Assembly: GCA_016744335.1 (NCBI GenBank)
Contig: JADGEO010000002.1
Coordinates: forward strand, 62,001-126,000
Source of the DNA: Anaerolineales bacterium
GTDB lineage: Bacteria; Chloroflexota; Anaerolineae; Anaerolineales; Villigracilaceae
Direction of reading: 5' to 3'
Length of the DNA: 64,000 bases
A program made the translations under genes and the position numbers. Below, in pieces: positions 1 through 30,970 of the stretch. The first letter of the stretch is position 1; every line of letters begins with the position of its first letter. Under the pieces are notes generated by a model that saw only the letters and a list, made by a program, of their open reading frames with translations, did no database searches and was not told where the DNA came from.

Positions 1-1278
1 GGCGAGGTTTAGTTTCTGTTGGAGCATGAAGAAACCGTGCCAGTGTGCCCAGTCTGGTGCACCCATCATTGCGCCTTGGCGAGCGCGGCGGCCATCGTGG
101 TGCCAAATATGATAATGCAGGATCATAAAGCCGTCTTCCCAAGGATTATCTTTTAGCAAGCCTGCGTCAGCCAATTCTACGCGCATGGCCTCTACGGGTG
201 TCCAGTACTCTACGTTGTAGAGTTCAACAGCTTTGTCACCACTTGCGAAATAGTTTTTGGTATGGGTGGTTGTATGACATTCGCCACAAACCTGTTCCAT
301 TTCGGCACGTCCGGCAACACCGTCGCCAGCGAACATTTCCATTGGGTCATCTTCAGTGCGGACTTTAGAAGTCTTTGCCCAGAGATTCCAGTAGAGACGT
401 TGGGTTACGTTGTGAGTGGTCTCAAGATCGCCGATACCGCTCATATGACAAGTAGCACAGGTAGGCGCACGATAATCGCCAGGTTCCCATTCGCCAGAGG
501 GGCTATCCCAAGTCCATTCTTCGCCTTCAGCCATAAAGATTTGGCCGTGCTTGGTGTTTTCAAATATCTCAATATCGGGATGATCAGGACCAATATGGCA
601 TCCACCGCAGGCTTCTGGCTTGCGTGATTCAGCAATATCGAAACTATGTCGGCTGTGGCAGACAGTACAATTTCCAATTTCACCAGTGGGGTATATATTA
701 CCAATACCAGCGGAGGGGTAAGTCTCTGCTGTGGGGTGCCCAGTATCATCTACTTCAATTGTGACACCATGGCATTGTTGACAACCAGTTTCATCAGATG
801 CACCACTGAGTTCATCATTTTCGCGTCCTTCGTGAACATGGATCAGAGCCTGCATTGAGTCTTTTTCTTCGTATTGGATAGCCGCACGCTCATGTCCACT
901 TGCGTGGAATTCGGAAACCGCATCTTCATGACATTCACCACAAGTTGCAGGGGCAACTAACATAGAGACAGTAACGGTCAAATCTTCATGACCTTCAACA
1001 CCGCTCAATGCCATGGGGGAGTCTGCGTCAACTTCATGACAGTCGATACAGGAGATACCTTCGTCTGCGTGACGACTTCCATCCCAGTCAGAGACGATGC
1101 CGTGAGTTTCTGTGGCATGGCACTCTACACAAGAGCGCCCCTCGTCAGTCAAGCTAACTGTTTGGTATCCACTAGAACTTTCAGCGGCTTCAGGTGCATC
1201 TGCACCTCCGCAAGAAACAAGAGCCAAACTAGCGAGAAGTATGGCAAAAACGAGCATAAAGATTCTTTCTTTTTTCAT
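1..1278 (-). CDS. Octaheme c-type cytochrome, hydroxylamine oxidoreductase (HAO) family, lipoprotein; 3' end truncated by window edge
   Basis: Manual reverse-strand translation gives an uninterrupted ORF MKKERIFMLVFAILLASLALVSCGGADAPEAAE... with a lipobox (LVSC) and eight CXXCH motifs (CVECH, CIDCH, CGECH, CQQCH, CTVCH, CGGCH, CATCH, CGECH). HAO-like segments include CTVCHSRHSFDIAESRKPEACGGCHIGPDHPDIEIFENTKHG and YRAPTCATCHMSGIGDLETTHN. RBS-like aagaggtga upstream. Not in the supplied ORF track because it runs off the window. Confidence 0.9.
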   Translation of the reverse strand, partial: MKKERIFMLVFAILLASLALVSCGGADAPEAAESSSGYQTVSLTDEGRSCVECHATETHGIVSDWDGSRHADEGISCIDCHEVDADSPMALSGVEGHEDLTVTVSMLVAPATCGECHEDAVSEFHASGHERAAIQYEEKDSMQALIHVHEGRENDELSGASDETGCQQCHGVTIEVDDTGHPTAETYPSAGIGNIYPTGEIGNCTVCHSRHSFDIAESRKPEACGGCHIGPDHPDIEIFENTKHGQIFMAEGEEWTWDSPSGEWEPGDYRAPTCATCHMSGIGDLETTHNVTQRLYWNLWAKTSKVRTEDDPMEMFAGDGVAGRAEMEQVCGECHTTTHTKNYFASGDKAVELYNVEYWTPVEAMRVELADAGLLKDNPWEDGFMILHYHIWHHDGRRARQGAMMGAPDWAHWHGFFMLQQKLNLA

Positions 1279-1316
1279 CATTCACCTCTTTTTATTGATT
1301 ATCAAACATTAAATAA

Positions 1317-1862
1317 TTATTTTTCAAAGCCGTATTTATATTTTGTTTCCAACAGGTATTTGTTCAAATTGTCGTGCCCAACCTCTGCGTGACAATCCAC
1401 ACACTCAGAGCCTGTTTTTCCTTCAAAATAAGTGTCATGGAATTCTTTATCAGCGGTTGCCTCTTCCAAATTGCGATGACAAGTTAGACATCCACTATCG
1501 TAAACATATTCGTTATGGTCAGCTCGTTTTGCTTGCCAATCCAAGTCTGCCTCGTTTTTTGTTAGCGTTACCCACACATCATGTGTGCCAGATTGAGCTT
1601 TGCCAACAAAATGAGTAAAGACATTTTCATGGGAAACATGACAATCGGTGCAAGCCGCCATTACACCGCGAGGATTATTTCCTCCATGTACCGAATCATG
1701 ATAAGACTTAACCATCGGTTCCATGGTGTGACAAGTGCCACAGAAATCAGCGTGAGAAGATACCTCAATGCCTGTTTCAATGGTCATCCACGAAACTACT
1801 GTCAGCAAAAGCAAGATACCGATGATGCCGAGCCAGGAGAACGTTTTTTTGCCTTCTTTCAT
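1317..1862 (-). CDS. NapC/NrfH-family membrane-anchored tetraheme cytochrome c
   Basis: N-terminal TM helix plus CGTCHTMEPMVKSYHDSVHGG and three more CXXCH (CTDCH, CLTCH, CVDCH). ATG at 1862 preceded by gaggtg; the ORF track start at 1868 is a GTG. Confidence 0.9.
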   Translation of the reverse strand: MKEGKKTFSWLGIIGILLLLTVVSWMTIETGIEVSSHADFCGTCHTMEPMVKSYHDSVHGGNNPRGVMAACTDCHVSHENVFTHFVGKAQSGTHDVWVTLTKNEADLDWQAKRADHNEYVYDSGCLTCHRNLEEATADKEFHDTYFEGKTGSECVDCHAEVGHDNLNKYLLETKYKYGFEK

Positions 1863-2008
1863 TTTCACCTCAACTTTATTATATTTTCCGAAAAAACAAT
1901 CGAATCCACTACGTGAATTATTAAAATATTACTGATAAAATTAATCTGGCGTTAATATACTCGAAAAAGAACCTAATATCAACCAGCAAAACAGATGATA
2001 TTAAAAGA

Positions 2009-2045
2009 AAAAGCGAGTTTTGTTATAAAAACTCGCTTTTTCTCA
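2009..2045. terminator. Rho-independent terminator hairpin
   Basis: aaaaagcgagtttt gttat aaaactcgctttttctc inverted repeat with T-tract between two minus-strand genes. Confidence 0.8.
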
Positions 2046-2069
2046 CCCAAACCGCCTAGTCTCTTTGGA

Positions 2070-2795
2070 CTATTTTTCGTTTTTTTCTTTCTGAAACCAC
2101 AACGCCGCCTGCACTCTGTTATTTATATGTAGCTTGTCAAGAATAAAGCGTAAATGCGAGCGCACCGTATTTACTGAAATTATCAACCTATTGGCTATTT
2201 CCTTGTTGGTTAAACCCTCTGCTACAAGCTCAAGAACTTCGTTTTCTCTGGGGGTTAAAAGATTGATTTCAGGTGCTTCTTCCTTGCGGGGAGCTTTAGA
2301 TCTTTCGTTCTTATTTTCAATATTTTTTCTCTCTCCATTTTTCCCCACAGAGAGAATTGCAAACTCATTTAGCAAACGCGGCGCCATAGCGGGCGGAATA
2401 ATCGCCTCCCCTTCGGCGACGCGCCAAATTGCATCTCGCATATATCGTGAATCTGTGACCGTTTTTAAAATATAACCTTGTGCCCCAGCCTTCACAGCTT
2501 CAAAAAGATCTTCGTCTTTCTCCGATGCCGTAATCATAATCACTTTTAAATCTGGGTAGGTAGCCAATAATTTTCGGGTCGCTTCTATGCCGTTCATGCC
2601 AGGCATTTTTACGTCCATCAAGATAATATCGGGCAAGGCGTTTTTCACTGTTTCTAGGGCAGAGATACCATTATCAGCTTCGCTAAGGATTTCAAAACGC
2701 GCATCTCTTTGCAAAAGGCTTGCCATCCCTTCTCGAAAGAGAAGGTGGTCGTCTACGAGCATGATTTTGATTGGATTTGTCATTACTTTCTCCAA
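2070..2795 (-). CDS. NarL/FixJ-family response regulator (receiver + LuxR HTH)
   Basis: IKIMLVDDHLLFREGM receiver start; LLTPRENEVLELVAEGLTNKEIANRLIISVNTVRSHL HTH. Confidence 0.95.
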   Translation of the reverse strand: MEKVMTNPIKIMLVDDHLLFREGMASLLQRDARFEILSEADNGISALETVKNALPDIILMDVKMPGMNGIEATRKLLATYPDLKVIMITASEKDEDLFEAVKAGAQGYILKTVTDSRYMRDAIWRVAEGEAIIPPAMAPRLLNEFAILSVGKNGERKNIENKNERSKAPRKEEAPEINLLTPRENEVLELVAEGLTNKEIANRLIISVNTVRSHLRFILDKLHINNRVQAALWFQKEKNEK

Positions 2796-2937: not shown

Positions 2938-4947
2938 TCAGGTCAACATCGAGGGGGAGATGGGCAAGGTTGCTGTTACCCGCGTCCCTTTATTCCTTTC
3001 ACTTTTTAGATCAAAGGAGCCGCCCAAATTCTCGGCACGTTCACGCATAATGCTTAATCCAAAATGTCTTCCATCTTCTTGGCTGTCAAAATTGAAACCG
3101 CGCCCATCATCTTCAATGATGAGTTTTACATATTTTTCTTTTTTCTGCAAATAGATATTAACGCTTTTGGCATTGGCATGTTTACGAACATTGGTGAGAG
3201 CTTCTTGTAGGATGCGCAAAAGCTCGGTTTCAATGCGAGGTGAAAGGGTGAGTTTTTCTTCGCCGGTATGAAACTCGGTTTTGAGCTTACTGCGCTGACG
3301 AAACTCTGCAATCCATGCCGCGATCGTAAGATTAATATCGCCAGTGGGGCGAGTGCGAAGACCATCTATAGATTCTCGCACATCGTAACAGGCATCTTTG
3401 ACCACATTGCGTATGGTGGTCATTTCAGTGGTGCTTTCTTCGAGCTTGCCTAGTTTTATATCTTCTTCTAATAATTCTGTTTTAATGCTCAGCCAGCCAA
3501 GCGTTTGGGCAAGGCTATCGTGTAACTCACGCGAGATACGGGCACGCTCTTCAAGAACGGCAATCTCTTCTATATGTTGGTGATATTTGGCGTTTTCTAT
3601 GGCTACGCCAAGCTGATTGCCAATGCTTTCAAGCAGTTGCATAATTTCTGCTGAAAAGCTATTTTCTTTTTTACTCAATAAAACCATTGTGCCCAATGGG
3701 CGGCTATGAGATTTTAGCAAAATAGAGGCTGCACGAGCATACCCTGCCTCGATAAGAGTATATTCTTTTTCGGCACATAGGGAGTTGGGGAAGAGTATCT
3801 GAAAAGTATCTTTGTTTATGTTTTCAACTTGAATAGCATTTTTAAGAGAAGGGATAATATATTTCCCCGAATTATTAGCAAAACAGGCAATAATATCGGT
3901 AGATAAATTTTTATGAACGACTACGCTAGAATTTCCTTTTTCTAATAAATGGATAAAACCGCCCTCTGCACCAGAGGCGTTAATTACTTTTCCTAGGGCT
4001 TCGTTAAGTACTTCTTCGAGTGCGCCCGATTGGCTAATGATTAAAGCAACTTCTGAGATGGTGTCTAATTCTTGGGTGCGCTGTGCAACTCTTTCTTTTA
4101 GAGAGTCTTGTGACTTTTGTAAGCTATAAACCATCTCATTGAGGGTTTTTCCGAGAACTTCTAGTTCGTCATCTGTGTTGAGGTTACAACGCGCTTCATA
4201 ATCTCCGTTGCTAACGGCAATTGCCACTTCTTCTAGTTGCGCCACAGGTGAGATAACCATTTTATTAACCATGATATATAGAGTGATCATCACCAAACTA
4301 ATAATGCCGAAGGCAGAAAATGTGAGAATACGCCGACTTTTGGCAAGCGAAGCATCCATTTCGCTGATGGGAACGATAACACTTAAGCCGCCGCGCAGGT
4401 CTCCTACTTGGTAGCCTTCTGTGTTATGACATTTGAGGCAACTGGCTTTCACTTCGAGGGGAAACATGAGGCGGTACACTGGCTCATCGCCATTTCTATC
4501 AACTTCTGCTACGGGGTCAAAATGATCTTCAAATTGGATAAGAGCATTATGCTCGAACTCGTCCGACATATTTTCAGGGTTGGTTAATATTAAACTGGTG
4601 ATATGAAATCTATAATCTCGTTTATCTCTCGATAAGTCTGATAATTCTTTTGTAACCATTGCGGGCGACTTTTGGTAATAACCATCTTCCATTTTTAGAT
4701 AATAATCGCCTGGTGTTTTTGTCCACACACCATTATAGGATGATATCCACTCTCGGATAAGAGTCATTTCTGAGAGCAGAGCTTCTGCCTGACTATGAAT
4801 TTGTTGCAAATGCTGTTTTTTTGTGTTGAGATAAATGCTATAAAAAAGAATAAAAATTACAACACTAATAATTAGCCCAATGCTAAGTGTTAACCGCATC
4901 CCTATGCTGGAGCGAAAAGCATAGCTTTTTTTGTTTTTTTCTTTCAT
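2938..4947 (-). CDS. Sensor histidine kinase (HisKA_3/NarX type) with Tll0287/DUF3365-like heme c-binding sensor domain, HAMP and GAF
   Basis: VKASCLKCHNTEGYQVGDLRGGLSVIVPI sensor segment with CXXCH; HAMP; GAF; ERARISRELHDSLAQTLGWL HisKA_3; HATPase motif DDGRGF. Confidence 0.9.
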   Translation of the reverse strand: MKEKNKKSYAFRSSIGMRLTLSIGLIISVVIFILFYSIYLNTKKQHLQQIHSQAEALLSEMTLIREWISSYNGVWTKTPGDYYLKMEDGYYQKSPAMVTKELSDLSRDKRDYRFHITSLILTNPENMSDEFEHNALIQFEDHFDPVAEVDRNGDEPVYRLMFPLEVKASCLKCHNTEGYQVGDLRGGLSVIVPISEMDASLAKSRRILTFSAFGIISLVMITLYIMVNKMVISPVAQLEEVAIAVSNGDYEARCNLNTDDELEVLGKTLNEMVYSLQKSQDSLKERVAQRTQELDTISEVALIISQSGALEEVLNEALGKVINASGAEGGFIHLLEKGNSSVVVHKNLSTDIIACFANNSGKYIIPSLKNAIQVENINKDTFQILFPNSLCAEKEYTLIEAGYARAASILLKSHSRPLGTMVLLSKKENSFSAEIMQLLESIGNQLGVAIENAKYHQHIEEIAVLEERARISRELHDSLAQTLGWLSIKTELLEEDIKLGKLEESTTEMTTIRNVVKDACYDVRESIDGLRTRPTGDINLTIAAWIAEFRQRSKLKTEFHTGEEKLTLSPRIETELLRILQEALTNVRKHANAKSVNIYLQKKEKYVKLIIEDDGRGFNFDSQEDGRHFGLSIMRERAENLGGSFDLKSERNKGTRVTATLPISPSMLT

Positions 4948-5140
4948 AAAGTGTATTCCTAAAAAAATGTTTTTTAGAGCTTAGCTATCATACTATTTTT
5001 ATGTCTTAATGGGGGGAGAATTTCTAGCGCAAATTTATAAAAAACGTTCACTAGGGCAAGCGGCTAAAAACGCGCGCGTATCGGTATCACATCCAATTGG
5101 GGGTATAATTTACATCTCACCGAAAAAAGGAGTATCACAA

Positions 5141-5887
5141 ATGACTCAGTTTCTAATGTACCAGCTCTTCAATTTACTAAATCGTCCAGGACCCTTATGG
5201 TTGGTTGAAGCCAATTTGAGTGGGCTAAACCTGAATGGTGCCAATCTCGAAAAAGCCAACCTAAGCGATGCCCAAATAAGCGGTTCAAATCTTTCAAATG
5301 CTAATTTGAAAGGGGCAAAGCTAAAACGCGCCATGCTACGGGAATCTACATTGAAAAAGACAAATTTTGAAGGCGCAAATTTAAGTGGGGCAATGCTAAA
5401 CAGATCAAATTCTTTTAGAGCCAATTATAAAAACAGTGATTTGCGAGAAATAAGCTTTAAAGATGCTCTGTTGGTAGAAGCAGACCTTTCAGGGGCAAAT
5501 TTAGAAAAAGCGTTTGGAAAAAAAACCGTTTTTGAGAAAGCTAATTTTGAAGAGGCAAACCTAAAGAATATTAACTTTGACAGGGTAAATATGCAAGAAG
5601 CCAATTTGAGAAAAGCCAATTTGACCGAAGCAAAATTATTAAATGTTGATTTGAAAAAAGCTAACTTACGAGAAGCTTGCTTAGAAAATGCCGATTTGCA
5701 AGATTCAGATTTACGAGGGGCAGATTTACGCAACTGCAATATGAAAGGGGCTAGTTTGCAAGGTGTGGTCTTAAAGGATGCCAATTTAGAAGGGGCAAAT
5801 TTAAAAGATGCCGACTTGCGCAATGCCATTCTTTTTGATGCAATTATGACAGGCGTAATTATGCCAAACGGCGAAATTAGGGAGTAG
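5141..5887 (+). CDS. Pentapeptide repeat protein
   Basis: Repeated A(N/D)LxxA pentapeptides. Start moved from 5009 to 5141 because of aaaaggag RBS before ATGACTCAG. Confidence 0.9.
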   Translation: MTQFLMYQLFNLLNRPGPLWLVEANLSGLNLNGANLEKANLSDAQISGSNLSNANLKGAKLKRAMLRESTLKKTNFEGANLSGAMLNRSNSFRANYKNSDLREISFKDALLVEADLSGANLEKAFGKKTVFEKANFEEANLKNINFDRVNMQEANLRKANLTEAKLLNVDLKKANLREACLENADLQDSDLRGADLRNCNMKGASLQGVVLKDANLEGANLKDADLRNAILFDAIMTGVIMPNGEIRE

Positions 5888-26603: not shown

Positions 26604-27941
26604 ATGTCAAGTGCAAAAAGTGAACCAAAGAAAAAGACACTCAATATCTGGATGGCTACCGCACTCGTCATGGGCACCATGATTGGGTCTGGCGTTTTCC
26701 TGCTTCCAGCTACGCTGGCACCTTATGGCGGAATCGCGTTGGTGGGATGGGTGGTCACATCTGTAGGGGCGATTTTATTGGCATTGGTTTTCGGCAAACT
26801 TGCCCAAATCTCCCCTGTTTCTGGCGGACCCTACGCCTATACCCGCATGGGATTTGAAGATTTCACAGCCTATCTGGTCGGTTGGGGATATTGGATTGCA
26901 CTATGGGTAGGAAACGCGGGAATAGCAGTTGCCATGATTGGCTATTTAGCCGTTTTTATCCCTGCCCTTAATGAAACGCCTGCGCTGGGGGCAGGTGTAG
27001 CCATTGGCACGGTCTGGCTACTTACTTGGGTTAATATGAGCGGCGTACGCAATGCCGGTATTGTTCAATTGGTGACTACAGTGCTAAAGCTCATCCCCTT
27101 AATTGCAGTCGCCTTTTTCGGGCTATTTTATTTAAATGTAGAAAATTTTAAACCCTTCAATGCCAGCGAAGAGTCGCCTATGATGGCTGTTGCCGCCACT
27201 GCCGCCCTAACCTTATGGGCATATTTAGGGCTAGAATCTGCTACCGTGCCCGCAGATGATGTGGAAGACGCACAAAAAACCATCCCACGAGCGACTATAT
27301 TGGGCGTTTCTTTGACCGCCGTTATCTATATTCTCGGCACTATTTCTGTTATGGGCGTAGTGCCACCCGATGCCTTAACTTTGTCTGTCGCTCCCTACGC
27401 GGACGCGGCAGAAGCCATGTGGGGGAAAGGCGCAGGACTATTCGTTGCCTTTGGTGCGGTAGCTTCTACTTTTGGTGCAATGAACGGTTGGTTGCTCCTT
27501 CAGGGACAAGTGCCCATGGCGGCGGCTAAAGACGGTCTCTTTCCTAAAATTTTTGCTAACGAATCAAAACAAGGCACCCCCACAACAGGCATGGTTATTT
27601 CTAGCATTTTGGTTTCTATTTTAATCGCTATGAATTTCACCAAAGGATTGGTAGACGCTTTTGCCTTCATCATCCTATTAGCAACGTTAACGGCTTTATT
27701 CCCCTATGTGCTTAGCACTATGGCAGAGCTAATGATATTTATCAAGTATCGTGAGCGTTTTGAGGGGAAGCGCTTGCTAAGCTCAAGTATAATCGCCAGT
27801 CTTGCCTTTATTTACTCTATATTCTGTATTTGGGGTTCTGGTGCCGAAACAGTGCTTTGGGGCTTCATTCTCTTACTGCTCGGCATCCCCGTTTATGTGT
27901 GGCTTCGCTGGCAACAGGCACAGGAGGTAGATGCAAAGTAA
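26604..27941 (+). CDS. APC-superfamily amino acid permease/antiporter (AdiC/ArcD-like)
   Basis: MATALVMGTMIGSGVFLLPATLAPYGG; 12-TM-like hydrophobicity. Confidence 0.88.
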   Translation: MSSAKSEPKKKTLNIWMATALVMGTMIGSGVFLLPATLAPYGGIALVGWVVTSVGAILLALVFGKLAQISPVSGGPYAYTRMGFEDFTAYLVGWGYWIALWVGNAGIAVAMIGYLAVFIPALNETPALGAGVAIGTVWLLTWVNMSGVRNAGIVQLVTTVLKLIPLIAVAFFGLFYLNVENFKPFNASEESPMMAVAATAALTLWAYLGLESATVPADDVEDAQKTIPRATILGVSLTAVIYILGTISVMGVVPPDALTLSVAPYADAAEAMWGKGAGLFVAFGAVASTFGAMNGWLLLQGQVPMAAAKDGLFPKIFANESKQGTPTTGMVISSILVSILIAMNFTKGLVDAFAFIILLATLTALFPYVLSTMAELMIFIKYRERFEGKRLLSSSIIASLAFIYSIFCIWGSGAETVLWGFILLLLGIPVYVWLRWQQAQEVDAK

Positions 27942-28006
27942 AAATGCTCATAAAAAGATAGCAATTTACCATACTACCTCGATAATTCAGAAAACAGGAG
28001 ATTAAT

Positions 28007-29350
28007 ATGCTAAAAAACATCAATCAACATTTAAAAGATCAAGAAGCACCTTATATAGAAGCACTCAGTAAATTATTGAGTATCCCTAGTGTATTTGATG
28101 GAAATGCCAAAGATACACCTTTTGGCAAAGATATTGACGACGCACTAAAAGAAACACTTCAACTTGCCGAGAGCTTGGGCTTTGAAACCCACTACGGCGA
28201 AGGTGGCTACTACGGATATGCCGATATTGGAGAAGGGGAAGAGCTAATCGGCGTTCTGGGACATTTAGATGTCGTCCCCGCTGGCAACCTAGAAGATTGG
28301 AATACAGCACCTTTTGACCCGATCGTAAAGGATGGCAATATCTACGGACGCGGCACTCAAGATGATAAAGGTCCAACCGTTGCGGCATTATTCGCTGTCA
28401 AAGCCTTGCAAGACGCGGGAGTCACTTTCAACAAACGCTTGCGCTTTATCTTCGGCATCGATGAAGAAAGCCTGTGGGGTAGTATCACCAAATATCTTGA
28501 AAACGAAGAAATTCCCTCAATGGGATTCTCTCCAGATGCAAATTTTCCGCTGATTTATGCCGAAAAAGGCTTATTGCAACTCAAGCTAACGACTAAAAAC
28601 GAAAGCGGATTAAAATTCACTGGCGGCAACGCCTTTAACGCAGTCCCCGATTCTGCTTTTTACGATGGCGATGAGCAAGAGGCACTAAGTGCAAAATTAG
28701 ATGAACTGGGCTTTGAATATAAAAAAGAAGATGGGGGCATAAAACTCGTTGGCAAGGCGGCACATGCTATGGTGCCAGAAAAAGGCATTAACGCCATCGC
28801 CCGCCTATGTATAGCACTTAAAGCAATTGGCATAGAATCTAAAGCCATTAATTTTGTAGCCCAAGAAGTTCAAGAAGACCCAAATGCGACCATCATCTTT
28901 GGCGATATAAATGATGAGCCTACAGGAAAACTAAAATTCAATGTGGGTAAAATAGAGTTAGGTGAAGAAGAAATCCTTTCTATTGATACCCGAATTCCCG
29001 TCACAATCCCTAAAGAAGAGATTGTCGAAAAGCTACTTGAAGTTGCAAAAAGACATGATTTAACCTATAGCGAATATGATTGGCTGGCACCAATTTACTT
29101 GCCTCTTGACCACCCACTTATTGAAACCTTGCTAGCCGTTTACCAGAAAGTCACTGGCGATACCGAGACAAAGCCGCGCACATCTGGTGGGGCTACCTAT
29201 GCACGGGCAATTCCTAATTGTGTTGCCTACGGACCCAACTTCCCGCATACTACTCTCACAGAACATCAACCAAACGAACATATACCCATCCAAGATTTAT
29301 ATACAGCTATGGAAGTGTACGCTCACGCTATTTATGAAATAACCCGCTAG
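28007..29350 (+). CDS. M20 family Sapep-type dipeptidase
   Basis: GVLGHLDVVPAGNLEDWNTAPFDP, GRGTQDDKGPTVAALFA, FIFGIDEESLWGS, TSGGATYARAIPNCVAYGP. Confidence 0.93.
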   Translation: MLKNINQHLKDQEAPYIEALSKLLSIPSVFDGNAKDTPFGKDIDDALKETLQLAESLGFETHYGEGGYYGYADIGEGEELIGVLGHLDVVPAGNLEDWNTAPFDPIVKDGNIYGRGTQDDKGPTVAALFAVKALQDAGVTFNKRLRFIFGIDEESLWGSITKYLENEEIPSMGFSPDANFPLIYAEKGLLQLKLTTKNESGLKFTGGNAFNAVPDSAFYDGDEQEALSAKLDELGFEYKKEDGGIKLVGKAAHAMVPEKGINAIARLCIALKAIGIESKAINFVAQEVQEDPNATIIFGDINDEPTGKLKFNVGKIELGEEEILSIDTRIPVTIPKEEIVEKLLEVAKRHDLTYSEYDWLAPIYLPLDHPLIETLLAVYQKVTGDTETKPRTSGGATYARAIPNCVAYGPNFPHTTLTEHQPNEHIPIQDLYTAMEVYAHAIYEITR

Positions 29351-29380
29351 AATAAATATCGCCTATCAAAAACAGTCTAA

Positions 29381-29413
29381 AAGAACCCGTTCCCTTGAAG
29401 GAAACGGGTTCTT
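29381..29413. terminator. Palindromic repeat/terminator (agaacccgttccctt family)
   Basis: aaaagaacccgttcccttgaaggaaacgggttctt. Confidence 0.75.
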
Positions 29414-29500
29414 CTAGCCGCTGAAGTTTTGTTTCTGAGAAAGCCTAATATAATTACCCAACTATCTTTCGCAAGACACAAGCAAAAACAAGGAGAAATA

Positions 29501-30970
29501 ATGTCTAAAGAAAAGAAAGGCTTCAAGTTTCCCACTGCCTATACCATTTTATTCTTTCTGATTATCATCGTTGCCGTAGGTACCTGGATTATCCCCGCTG
29601 GCTCTTATGATTATACCGAAGAGGGCGAACCTGTCCCCGGCTCATACCATGAAGTAGAACAAAACCCACAAAGCTTCATTCATAGTGCTTTTATAGCACC
29701 CCTGCACGGCATGTACGGCATTCAGGATGATACTGGCAATGTCAATATCTACAACAGCGGTGGCCTTTACGGTGCAATTGATGTCGCCATGTTCGTCCTT
29801 GTTATAGGCGGATTCTTGGGCATTACCATGAAAACAGGCGCCATAGACGCAGGCATCGCTAATATCACACAAGCATTAAAGGGCAAAGAAAAATGGATGA
29901 TTGTCGTTCTAATGATTGTTTTTGCGCTAGGAGGTACCTCCTTCGGGATGGCAGAAGAAACGCTTGCCTTTTATGTTTTAATCATCGCGGTAATGATAGC
30001 CGCGGGATATGACACAATCACTGGTGTTGCTATTGTTATGGTGGGCGCAGGCATTGGTGTATTGGCATCCACTGTAAACCCCTTTGCAACGGGAATCGCT
30101 TCTGGGTTTGCAGGTCTCTCCGTTGCCGATGGGATGCTAGGACGCGCTATCATTCTAATCGTTGGTACCGCCATCGGCATTGTCTATGTTTCTCGCTACG
30201 CCGAAAAAGTACGCCAAGACCCCAGCAAATCATTGGTTTACGATCAAAAAGCTGAAAACGAAGCCCACTTTGGCAACTCTTCTGAAGATGGCTCTTTCCC
30301 CGAATTCACGGGACAACGAAAACTCATTTTATCTTTATTTGGGATGGCTTTTTTCGTAATGATTTTCAGCGTAATCCCCTGGCAAGACTTGGGAATTCCG
30401 TTCCCACAATGGAATTGGTGGTTCGGAGAAATGACCGCCCTATTTCTATTCTTTGCCATTCTCATTGGCTTAGTTGGAAAACTAGGCGAAGAAAACATCG
30501 TCTATACCTTTGTAGATGGTGCCCGTGATATGCTCGGCGTAGCCCTCATTGTAGGCTTAGCTCGTGGCGTTAGCGTTGTGATGAACAACGGCTTAATTAC
30601 CGACACCGTCCTCTTCTGGGCAGAAAGTGCCCTCTCTGGCTTAGGTGGCGTAGCCTTTATCAATATCACCCATCTGCTCTACTTGCCACTCAGCTTCCTT
30701 ATCCCTTCCACCTCTGGCTTAGCAACCGTATCAATGCCCATTATGGCACCCTTAGGTGATTTAGCAGGCGTTAACCGAGCCTTAATCGTGACCGCTTACC
30801 AATCGGCAAGTGGCTTAATTAATCTAATAACCCCCACATCTGCTGTAGTGATGGGCGGGCTTGCATTAGGACGAATAAGTTACAGTAAATGGCTCAAATT
30901 TGTTGCCCCACTTATAGCCATTCTTTTCTTATTATATGTGCTAGTACTGAGCATTAGCGTATTGCTCTAA
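29501..30970 (+). CDS. YfcC/ArcD-like basic amino acid or dicarboxylate transporter
   Basis: FPTAYTILFFLIIIVAVGTWIIPAGSYDY, multi-TM. Start at ATG 29501 after aaggag. Confidence 0.85.
   Translation: MSKEKKGFKFPTAYTILFFLIIIVAVGTWIIPAGSYDYTEEGEPVPGSYHEVEQNPQSFIHSAFIAPLHGMYGIQDDTGNVNIYNSGGLYGAIDVAMFVLVIGGFLGITMKTGAIDAGIANITQALKGKEKWMIVVLMIVFALGGTSFGMAEETLAFYVLIIAVMIAAGYDTITGVAIVMVGAGIGVLASTVNPFATGIASGFAGLSVADGMLGRAIILIVGTAIGIVYVSRYAEKVRQDPSKSLVYDQKAENEAHFGNSSEDGSFPEFTGQRKLILSLFGMAFFVMIFSVIPWQDLGIPFPQWNWWFGEMTALFLFFAILIGLVGKLGEENIVYTFVDGARDMLGVALIVGLARGVSVVMNNGLITDTVLFWAESALSGLGGVAFINITHLLYLPLSFLIPSTSGLATVSMPIMAPLGDLAGVNRALIVTAYQSASGLINLITPTSAVVMGGLALGRISYSKWLKFVAPLIAILFLLYVLVLSISVLL

Follow-up and report, generated by a model that had tools for sequence, protein, structure and literature searches.

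What reaction does an octaheme cytochrome of the HAO family, paired with a tetraheme quinol dehydrogenase, carry out in an anaerobic Anaerolineales bacterium? HAO-family proteins are known from 65 phyla, and most of the clade I and clade II proteins outside Campylobacterota are without a known function (PMC9213671). The Campylobacterota lineage forms part of clade II (PMC9213671), and its epsilonHao is reported to reduce nitrite to ammonia (PMC9938260 and PMC9213671). Similar HAO–NapC pairs have been reported from Parcubacteria (PMC5220378), and Hao-based ammonification from Deferribacteres (PMC6896113). In the literature searched, we found no description of a haoCA-type pair in Chloroflexota. 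Here we report a computational analysis of a 64,000-nucleotide stretch of an Anaerolineales genome (G000:C57:62001-126000, hereafter referred to as the window; genome of 3.62 Mb in 134 contigs, 95.8% complete), at the left edge of which an earlier note, made from the DNA letters, had placed such a pair. We consider it likely that this two-gene, twelve-heme haoCA unit is a quinol-fed, lipid-anchored reductase of nitrite, NO or hydroxylamine.

The octaheme cytochrome and its family

The locus comprises the following features, in window positions:

1 to 1278, minus strand: haoA-like gene, epsilonHao-type octaheme cytochrome c and predicted lipoprotein, assigned by its open frame, PF13447 and the tree; the complete gene is G000:C57:61929-63278(-)
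1317 to 1862, minus strand: haoC-like gene, NapC/NrfH-family tetraheme quinol dehydrogenase of 181 aa, assigned by PF03264 and an NrfH match
1863 to 2069, minus strand: intergenic region, in which a hairpin and T-run after the end of the response regulator gene are followed by the presumed haoCA promoter
2070 to 2795, minus strand: NarL/LuxR-type response regulator (PF00072, E=5e-28; PF00196, E=8e-19)
2938 to 4947, minus strand: histidine kinase with an extracytoplasmic sCache_heme (Tll0287-like) c-haem domain, HAMP, GAF, HisKA_3 and HATPase

The octaheme gene starts at position 1278 (or 1281), and its frame is open down to base 1, as the earlier note had read it. The frame runs on to C57:61929, and the protein is therefore complete at 449 aa; the leftward extension for which the note had called thus ends 71 bp past the window edge. 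The gene is followed by a strong terminator, a GC-rich hairpin with a 15-bp stem and then a T-run. Both the lipobox (LVSC/G, with the Cys at residue 23) and the eight CXXCH motifs (at residues 50, 77, 113, 166, 204, 224, 274 and 331) claimed for the truncated frame are found in the complete protein; when its residues were shuffled 20,000 times, CXXCH occurred 0.03 times on average and at most twice. The tetraheme gene lies 38 bp upstream, at the spacing previously given, and the ribosome sites of the octaheme and tetraheme genes (AGAGGTGA and TGAGGTGA) are of the AGGTG type.

The assignment to the HAO family, proposed in the note without database searches, is borne out by a PF13447 match (E=2e-26, Pfam) and by an HMMER search in which the solved-structure relatives all belong to the HAO family, with IhOCC (4qo5) first, and Kuenenia 6h5l, Nitrosomonas europaea HAO and others besides. 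The NCBIfam matches (hydrazine dehydrogenase and NrfH) fall far below their cut-offs, and no existing equivalog therefore fits. An AlphaFold model (mean pLDDT of 85.1, 47-sequence input) returned nine Foldseek matches at E<=0.001, every one of them HAO-family, so that the C-terminus has the HAO fold, the lack of which would have told against the reading in the note. NrfA appeared only at E>=5, which is not significant, and OTR is absent among the fold matches. The TM-scores are low (0.3–0.4), which may reflect the absence of haems from the model.

In one scan of named genomes we obtained 80 relatives, with identities of 51–88% to other Anaerolineae, 51–59% to Gammaproteobacteria and, by this search, 46–50% to Campylobacterota (Arcobacter, Sulfurimonas, Sulfurovum, Campylobacter concisus and Helicobacter), followed by Desulfobacterota and others. 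In a quick tree of 95 rows with SH-aLRT support only, the query falls within a 21-row Chloroflexota clade (support 98) that is sister to Gammaproteobacteria (support 98), and both lie inside a 49-row clade holding the Campylobacterota epsilonHao (support 90). N. europaea HAO (1fgj) and Kuenenia 6h5l split off outside (support 99); these two served as outgroup as HMMER-aligned pieces, in place of full-length AOB or anammox sequences, and they and 4qo5 have long branches. The query thus groups with epsilonHao and away from the nitrifier and Kuenenia proteins in the tree for which the earlier note had asked. By sequence, tree, fold and partner gene, the octaheme protein belongs, within the HAO family, to the branch of epsilonHao (haoCA, 'clade II'), and the epsilonHao/haoCA core is of an already known kind. 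The gene is rare in its phylum (2/400 genomes) and patchy in its genus (6/9 genomes). Other Chloroflexota carry a second octaheme HAO subfamily (L013-L017, L113-L115), ~33% identical to the query, in which an N-terminal membrane helix replaces the lipobox and the Met/Trp signature described below is retained; the ~1.5-kb flanks of L013-L017 hold no multihaem partner gene.

Instead of the soluble periplasmic form with a Sec signal, which is typical of epsilonHao without being essential to it, the query has the lipobox. A lipobox occurs in all 21 rows of the Chloroflexota clade (20 by scan, with the Cys at about residue 22–28, and L051, with an unsure start codon, by eye) and is nearly absent elsewhere, a distribution that we regard as new and that points to lipidation of the octaheme protein. 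N-termini outside the clade look like Sec signals, and L054, labelled Chloroflexota yet placed outside the clade, has no lipobox. The scan also gave weak hits in L085, L092 and L109, which we discounted because the Cys, at residue 12–15, is too near the start. Anaerolineae are not known to have an outer membrane, and a quinol-fed enzyme would therefore be kept at the cell by its lipid anchor, which would make the anchor a testable adaptation to such an envelope.

Active-site residues and the direction of electron flow

Oxidative HAOs carry a Tyr cross-linked to haem 4, and reductive HAOs are without it (PMC12758564). In PMC8940962, which cites Haase 2017, the epsilonHao signature is given as a Trp in the Tyr position and a Met eight residues before it. 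The query counterparts are M405 and W413, kept in 46/47 and 47/47 sequences, respectively, and none of the 47 has a Tyr at positions 411–415. Thus, the cross-linking Tyr appears to be absent and the epsilonHao Met/Trp signature present, with the equivalence of Tyr467 and W413 taken from the published description (PMC8940962), as the HMMER alignment to N. europaea HAO stops near residue 407. The earlier note had seen a Trp in MMGAPDWAHWHGFFML where a Tyr would be needed if this were the cross-linking position, with the alignment left unverified; the absence of the Tyr stands, but the segment contains two Trp residues, of which W413 (in HWHG) fits the position and W410 (in PDW) does not. The W410 column is Tyr in nearly all other members and Trp in 20/21 Chloroflexota-clade rows, as well as in L050 and L054. 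W410 was rejected as the P460 position because the Campylobacterota enzymes, which have Tyr in this column, are reported to be without the critical Tyr.

The pairs D232-H233 and H393-H394 are invariant in the 47 sequences. From the alignment to solved structures and from what is known of HAO, we take D232-H233 to be the equivalent of the HAO active-site pair Asp267-His268. All eight haem motifs are CXXCH, with no CXXCK active-site haem of the NrfA/ONR kind. The missing CXXCK, the lack of a PF02335 match and the insignificant fold match place the protein outside NrfA and ONR, and the lack of a Tyr at 411–415 in all 47 sequences argues that it does not belong to the nitrifier-type (P460) HAOs.

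These residues bear on two other readings of the locus. An oxidative hydroxylamine dehydrogenase feeding electrons into the quinone pool would be in line with HAO family membership and with the ability of NapC-type cytochromes to carry electrons either way, and has been put forward for a Parcubacterium that has a comparable HAO–NapC pair (PMC5220378). However, the query lacks the cross-linking Tyr that characterises the known oxidative HAOs (PMC12758564), its position in the tree is away from AOB HAO, and no COX1-family oxidase was found in the genome; we regard this direction as very improbable. Nearly as improbable, in our view, is a non-catalytic haem wire that would carry quinol electrons to an acceptor outside the cell. 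Monoderm cells can wire electrons outward through multihaem proteins that are lipid-anchored at their outer face, and the lipobox of the octaheme protein would suit such a role, but D232-H233 and W413 are invariant across the 47 sequences, and a catalytic role is favoured because such invariance is expected of an enzyme.

Partner gene, haem-sensor system and genome content

The tetraheme protein has four CXXCH motifs and matches PF03264 (E=8e-28, Pfam) and the NrfH structure 2j7a (E=7e-8). Where the flank is long enough, a NapC-type gene is almost always found directly 5′ of the octaheme gene, across phyla. The trees of the two genes broadly match each other, as they should if the pair is passed on as a unit. 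Within the genus this pattern is clearly broken once: the partners of L005, L006 and L008 fall in another clade than those of the query, L004 and L007, while the octaheme proteins of all six remain close. A tree forcing the partners of the genus together was rejected (AU p=1e-4), a value that is indicative, as the group was picked after the identities were known. An apparent partner replacement has thus taken place inside the genus, suggesting that NapC-type partner genes can be exchanged.

The region upstream of haoCA contains a candidate promoter (TTGATA-17-TATATT at L002:11982-11954, 10 of 12). In an alignment of six genomes of the genus, a AAGATTAATTT-type block at about 1938-1948 is conserved ahead of the operon, including in genomes that have a different partner gene or lack the regulator, and is a possible promoter or operator element. 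Directly upstream of haoCA lie the NarL-type regulator and the sCache_heme kinase, an arrangement that has not, as far as we found, been described before; a search of the whole genome found no second PF11845 protein. The kinase sensor domain (PF11845, E=3e-20) has a single CXXCH (CLKCH at residue 170), and the kinase combines PF11845 and CXXCH with HAMP in a signalling protein, as sCache_heme sensors do. A divergent gene for a 292-aa pentapeptide-repeat protein (5009-5887, plus strand) adjoins the kinase.

The PF11845 domain was renamed sCache_heme in a 2026 preprint, in which a signalling-type member from P. azotoformans binds NO stably and does not bind O2, and in which the domain is described as rare or absent in Chloroflexota (PMC12889525). 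By analogy, the haoCA-adjacent kinase is probably an NO sensor. The regulator is retained upstream of haoCA in 4/5 relatives in the genus that carry haoCA, and is not upstream of it in G004 or in other Anaerolineales families; the regulatory link is not universal, because the sCache_heme kinase is likewise not beside haoCA in these. Nine more named loci (a raw count), from Thermodesulfobacteriota (Desulfobacterota), Myxococcota-labelled MAGs and one unassigned bacterium, have a PF11845-type kinase no more than a few kb from haoCA; three (L071, L088 and L107) are Pfam-confirmed and six (L076, L077, L089, L093, L094 and L096) were found by a small home-made profile. The Pfam-confirmed kinases are of the HisKA type, versus HisKA_3 in the query.

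Family searches at E<=0.001 in the 95.8% complete genome found no NrfA (PF02335), no Hcp or prismane protein, no nitrate reductase and no haem-copper oxidase of the COX1/NorB family. This combination of absences beside haoCA is also new, and it and the haem-sensor system both go beyond the earlier note. The molybdopterin-family proteins are formate dehydrogenase and NuoG only: two nitrate reductase candidates were rejected, L130 as NuoG and L129 as a formate dehydrogenase alpha subunit (G000:C42:44040-45374) with an in-frame TGA, probably encoding selenocysteine. For cytochrome c assembly, the genome encodes two proteins with the sizes of CcmF and CcmC. Elsewhere in the window (26604-30970, plus strand), a basic amino acid/polyamine-type antiporter, an M20 dipeptidase and a DcuC-type carrier are encoded one after another; this cluster for the use of amino acids or peptides fits a fermentative host.

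Among 60 relatives, full-length NrfA is found in 22 and NapC-paired haoCA in 10 (the query genome included), and no genome has both (P=0.006 by genome, P=0.053 by genus). As the by-genus value is borderline, this exclusion, newly seen among these relatives, is suggestive only; the same exclusion has been noted in Campylobacterota (PMC9938260).

The lack of a detected nitrate reductase counts against the favoured reading, as the host shows none to supply nitrite, and it speaks for two alternatives. In the first, the same quinol-fed octaheme reductase would act on a sulfur compound (sulfite or tetrathionate) or another acceptor, as proposed for the clade I HAO of Desulfobacterota from vents that are poor in oxidised nitrogen (PMC9213671), and many relatives of the query are indeed sulfur-cycling bacteria. 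We think such a substrate unlikely: nitrite is reduced to ammonia by the epsilonHao of Campylobacterota, the closest relatives to have been characterised (PMC9938260), the adjacent sensor kinase comes from a family that has the properties of an NO sensor (PMC12889525), none of the relatives has both haoCA and NrfA, and the fold matches do not include OTR. In the second, the pair would detoxify NO, nitrite or hydroxylamine once the NO sensor is triggered, with no support of growth; this differs from the favoured reading in role, and the chemistry is the same. The sensor is of the NO type (PMC12889525), a cell in which no nitrate reductase was found would make no nitrite of its own, and the gene is patchy in phylum and genus. 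Quinol coupling through a NapC-type partner is nevertheless the usual respiratory layout, and NrfA, seemingly replaced here, can do both jobs (PMC12285233). A purely protective role is a serious possibility, on which we put somewhat less than even weight.

Proposed mechanism and comparison with known systems

We infer a quinol-fed, membrane-tethered, reductase-type HAO, as the earlier note had proposed, because the tree, the C-terminal fold, the conserved partner and the absence of the Tyr together with the Met/Trp signature agree. In this putative nitrite/NO/hydroxylamine reductase, the NapC/NrfH-type tetraheme protein would take electrons from (mena)quinol and pass them on to the epsilonHao-type octaheme cytochrome, presumably tied by an N-terminal lipid to the outer side of the membrane. 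There, an open active-site haem with no Tyr cross-link would favour reductive work on nitrite and/or NO and hydroxylamine. The Nap–Hao–Hcp route proposed for Nautilia (PMC3701875) cannot run as described in this genome, because neither a nitrate reductase nor Hcp was found. Nitrite would have to come from outside the cell, as no nitrate reductase was detected, and the product would most likely be ammonium directly, as no Hcp was found to finish the reaction. Expression of the operon is probably induced by NO, through the sCache_heme kinase and the NarL-type regulator.

We put forward a wider proposal with some reserve, and think it may well not hold as a whole: that the locus is an anchored, NO-regulated NO/nitrite ammonification module of monoderm-type Chloroflexota, in which haoCA from another phylum, without Nap or Hcp, replaces NrfA, and in which the kinase pairing marks clade I/II relatives. 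The NO-type kinase beside haoCA, here and in Desulfobacterota and Myxococcota MAGs, is an independent hint of nitrogen-oxide handling in part of the HAO group, and, if the proposal is true, its recurrence in several phyla would identify a large part of the clade I/II HAO proteins that have no assigned function as NO/nitrite reductases. Anaerolineales without NrfA would then still retain nitrogen as ammonium, and surveys based on nrfA only would miss them.

A comparison with known systems places this locus among reductive HAO-family enzymes. NrfHA has the same layout, from quinol through a NapC/NrfH-type protein to a multihaem reductase, and the same proposed reaction, whereas NrfA is pentaheme and the query octaheme, with no PF02335 match in the genome and an insignificant fold match. 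Kuenenia Kustc0458 (6h5l) is a HAO-family octaheme protein described as reducing, with no Tyr in the matching C-terminal segment, and lies on a separate branch from the query; to our knowledge, Kustc0457, with which it forms a complex, is not a quinol dehydrogenase of the NapC type. IhOCC of Ignicoccus hospitalis (4qo5) is the best solved-structure match by sequence and fold, is membrane-associated and has no Tyr in the matching segment. It differs in its very long branch, its ~21% identity in the structural alignment and its active-site pair, which is Asp-Val, whereas the query has Asp-His. The octaheme cytochromes of Gammaproteobacteria (Oceanospirillum, Marinobacterium and Pseudohalioglobus) form the sister group at 51–59% identity and also have a NapC partner, but have a Sec signal, Tyr at 410 (Trp in Lamprobacter) and no sCache_heme kinase nearby.

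The Campylobacterota epsilonHao (haoCA, of the reverse-HURM module in Nautilia profundicola) is likewise an octaheme HAO-family reductase without the Tyr and with Met-x7-Trp, and has its tetraheme NapC/NrfH partner directly upstream, as in the query; the copies from Campylobacter, Arcobacter, Sulfurimonas and Helicobacter are 46–52% identical to the query. In contrast to these enzymes, the query has a lipobox in place of a Sec signal, W410 where nearly all others have Tyr, and an NO-type haem-sensor kinase next door, and neither Nap nor Hcp, which complete the reverse-HURM pathway (Nap, HaoCA and Hcp), was found in its genome. Collectively, the predicted lipid anchor, the link to a haem-sensor system and the lack of detected enzymes for the steps before and after it set this haoCA apart as a variant.
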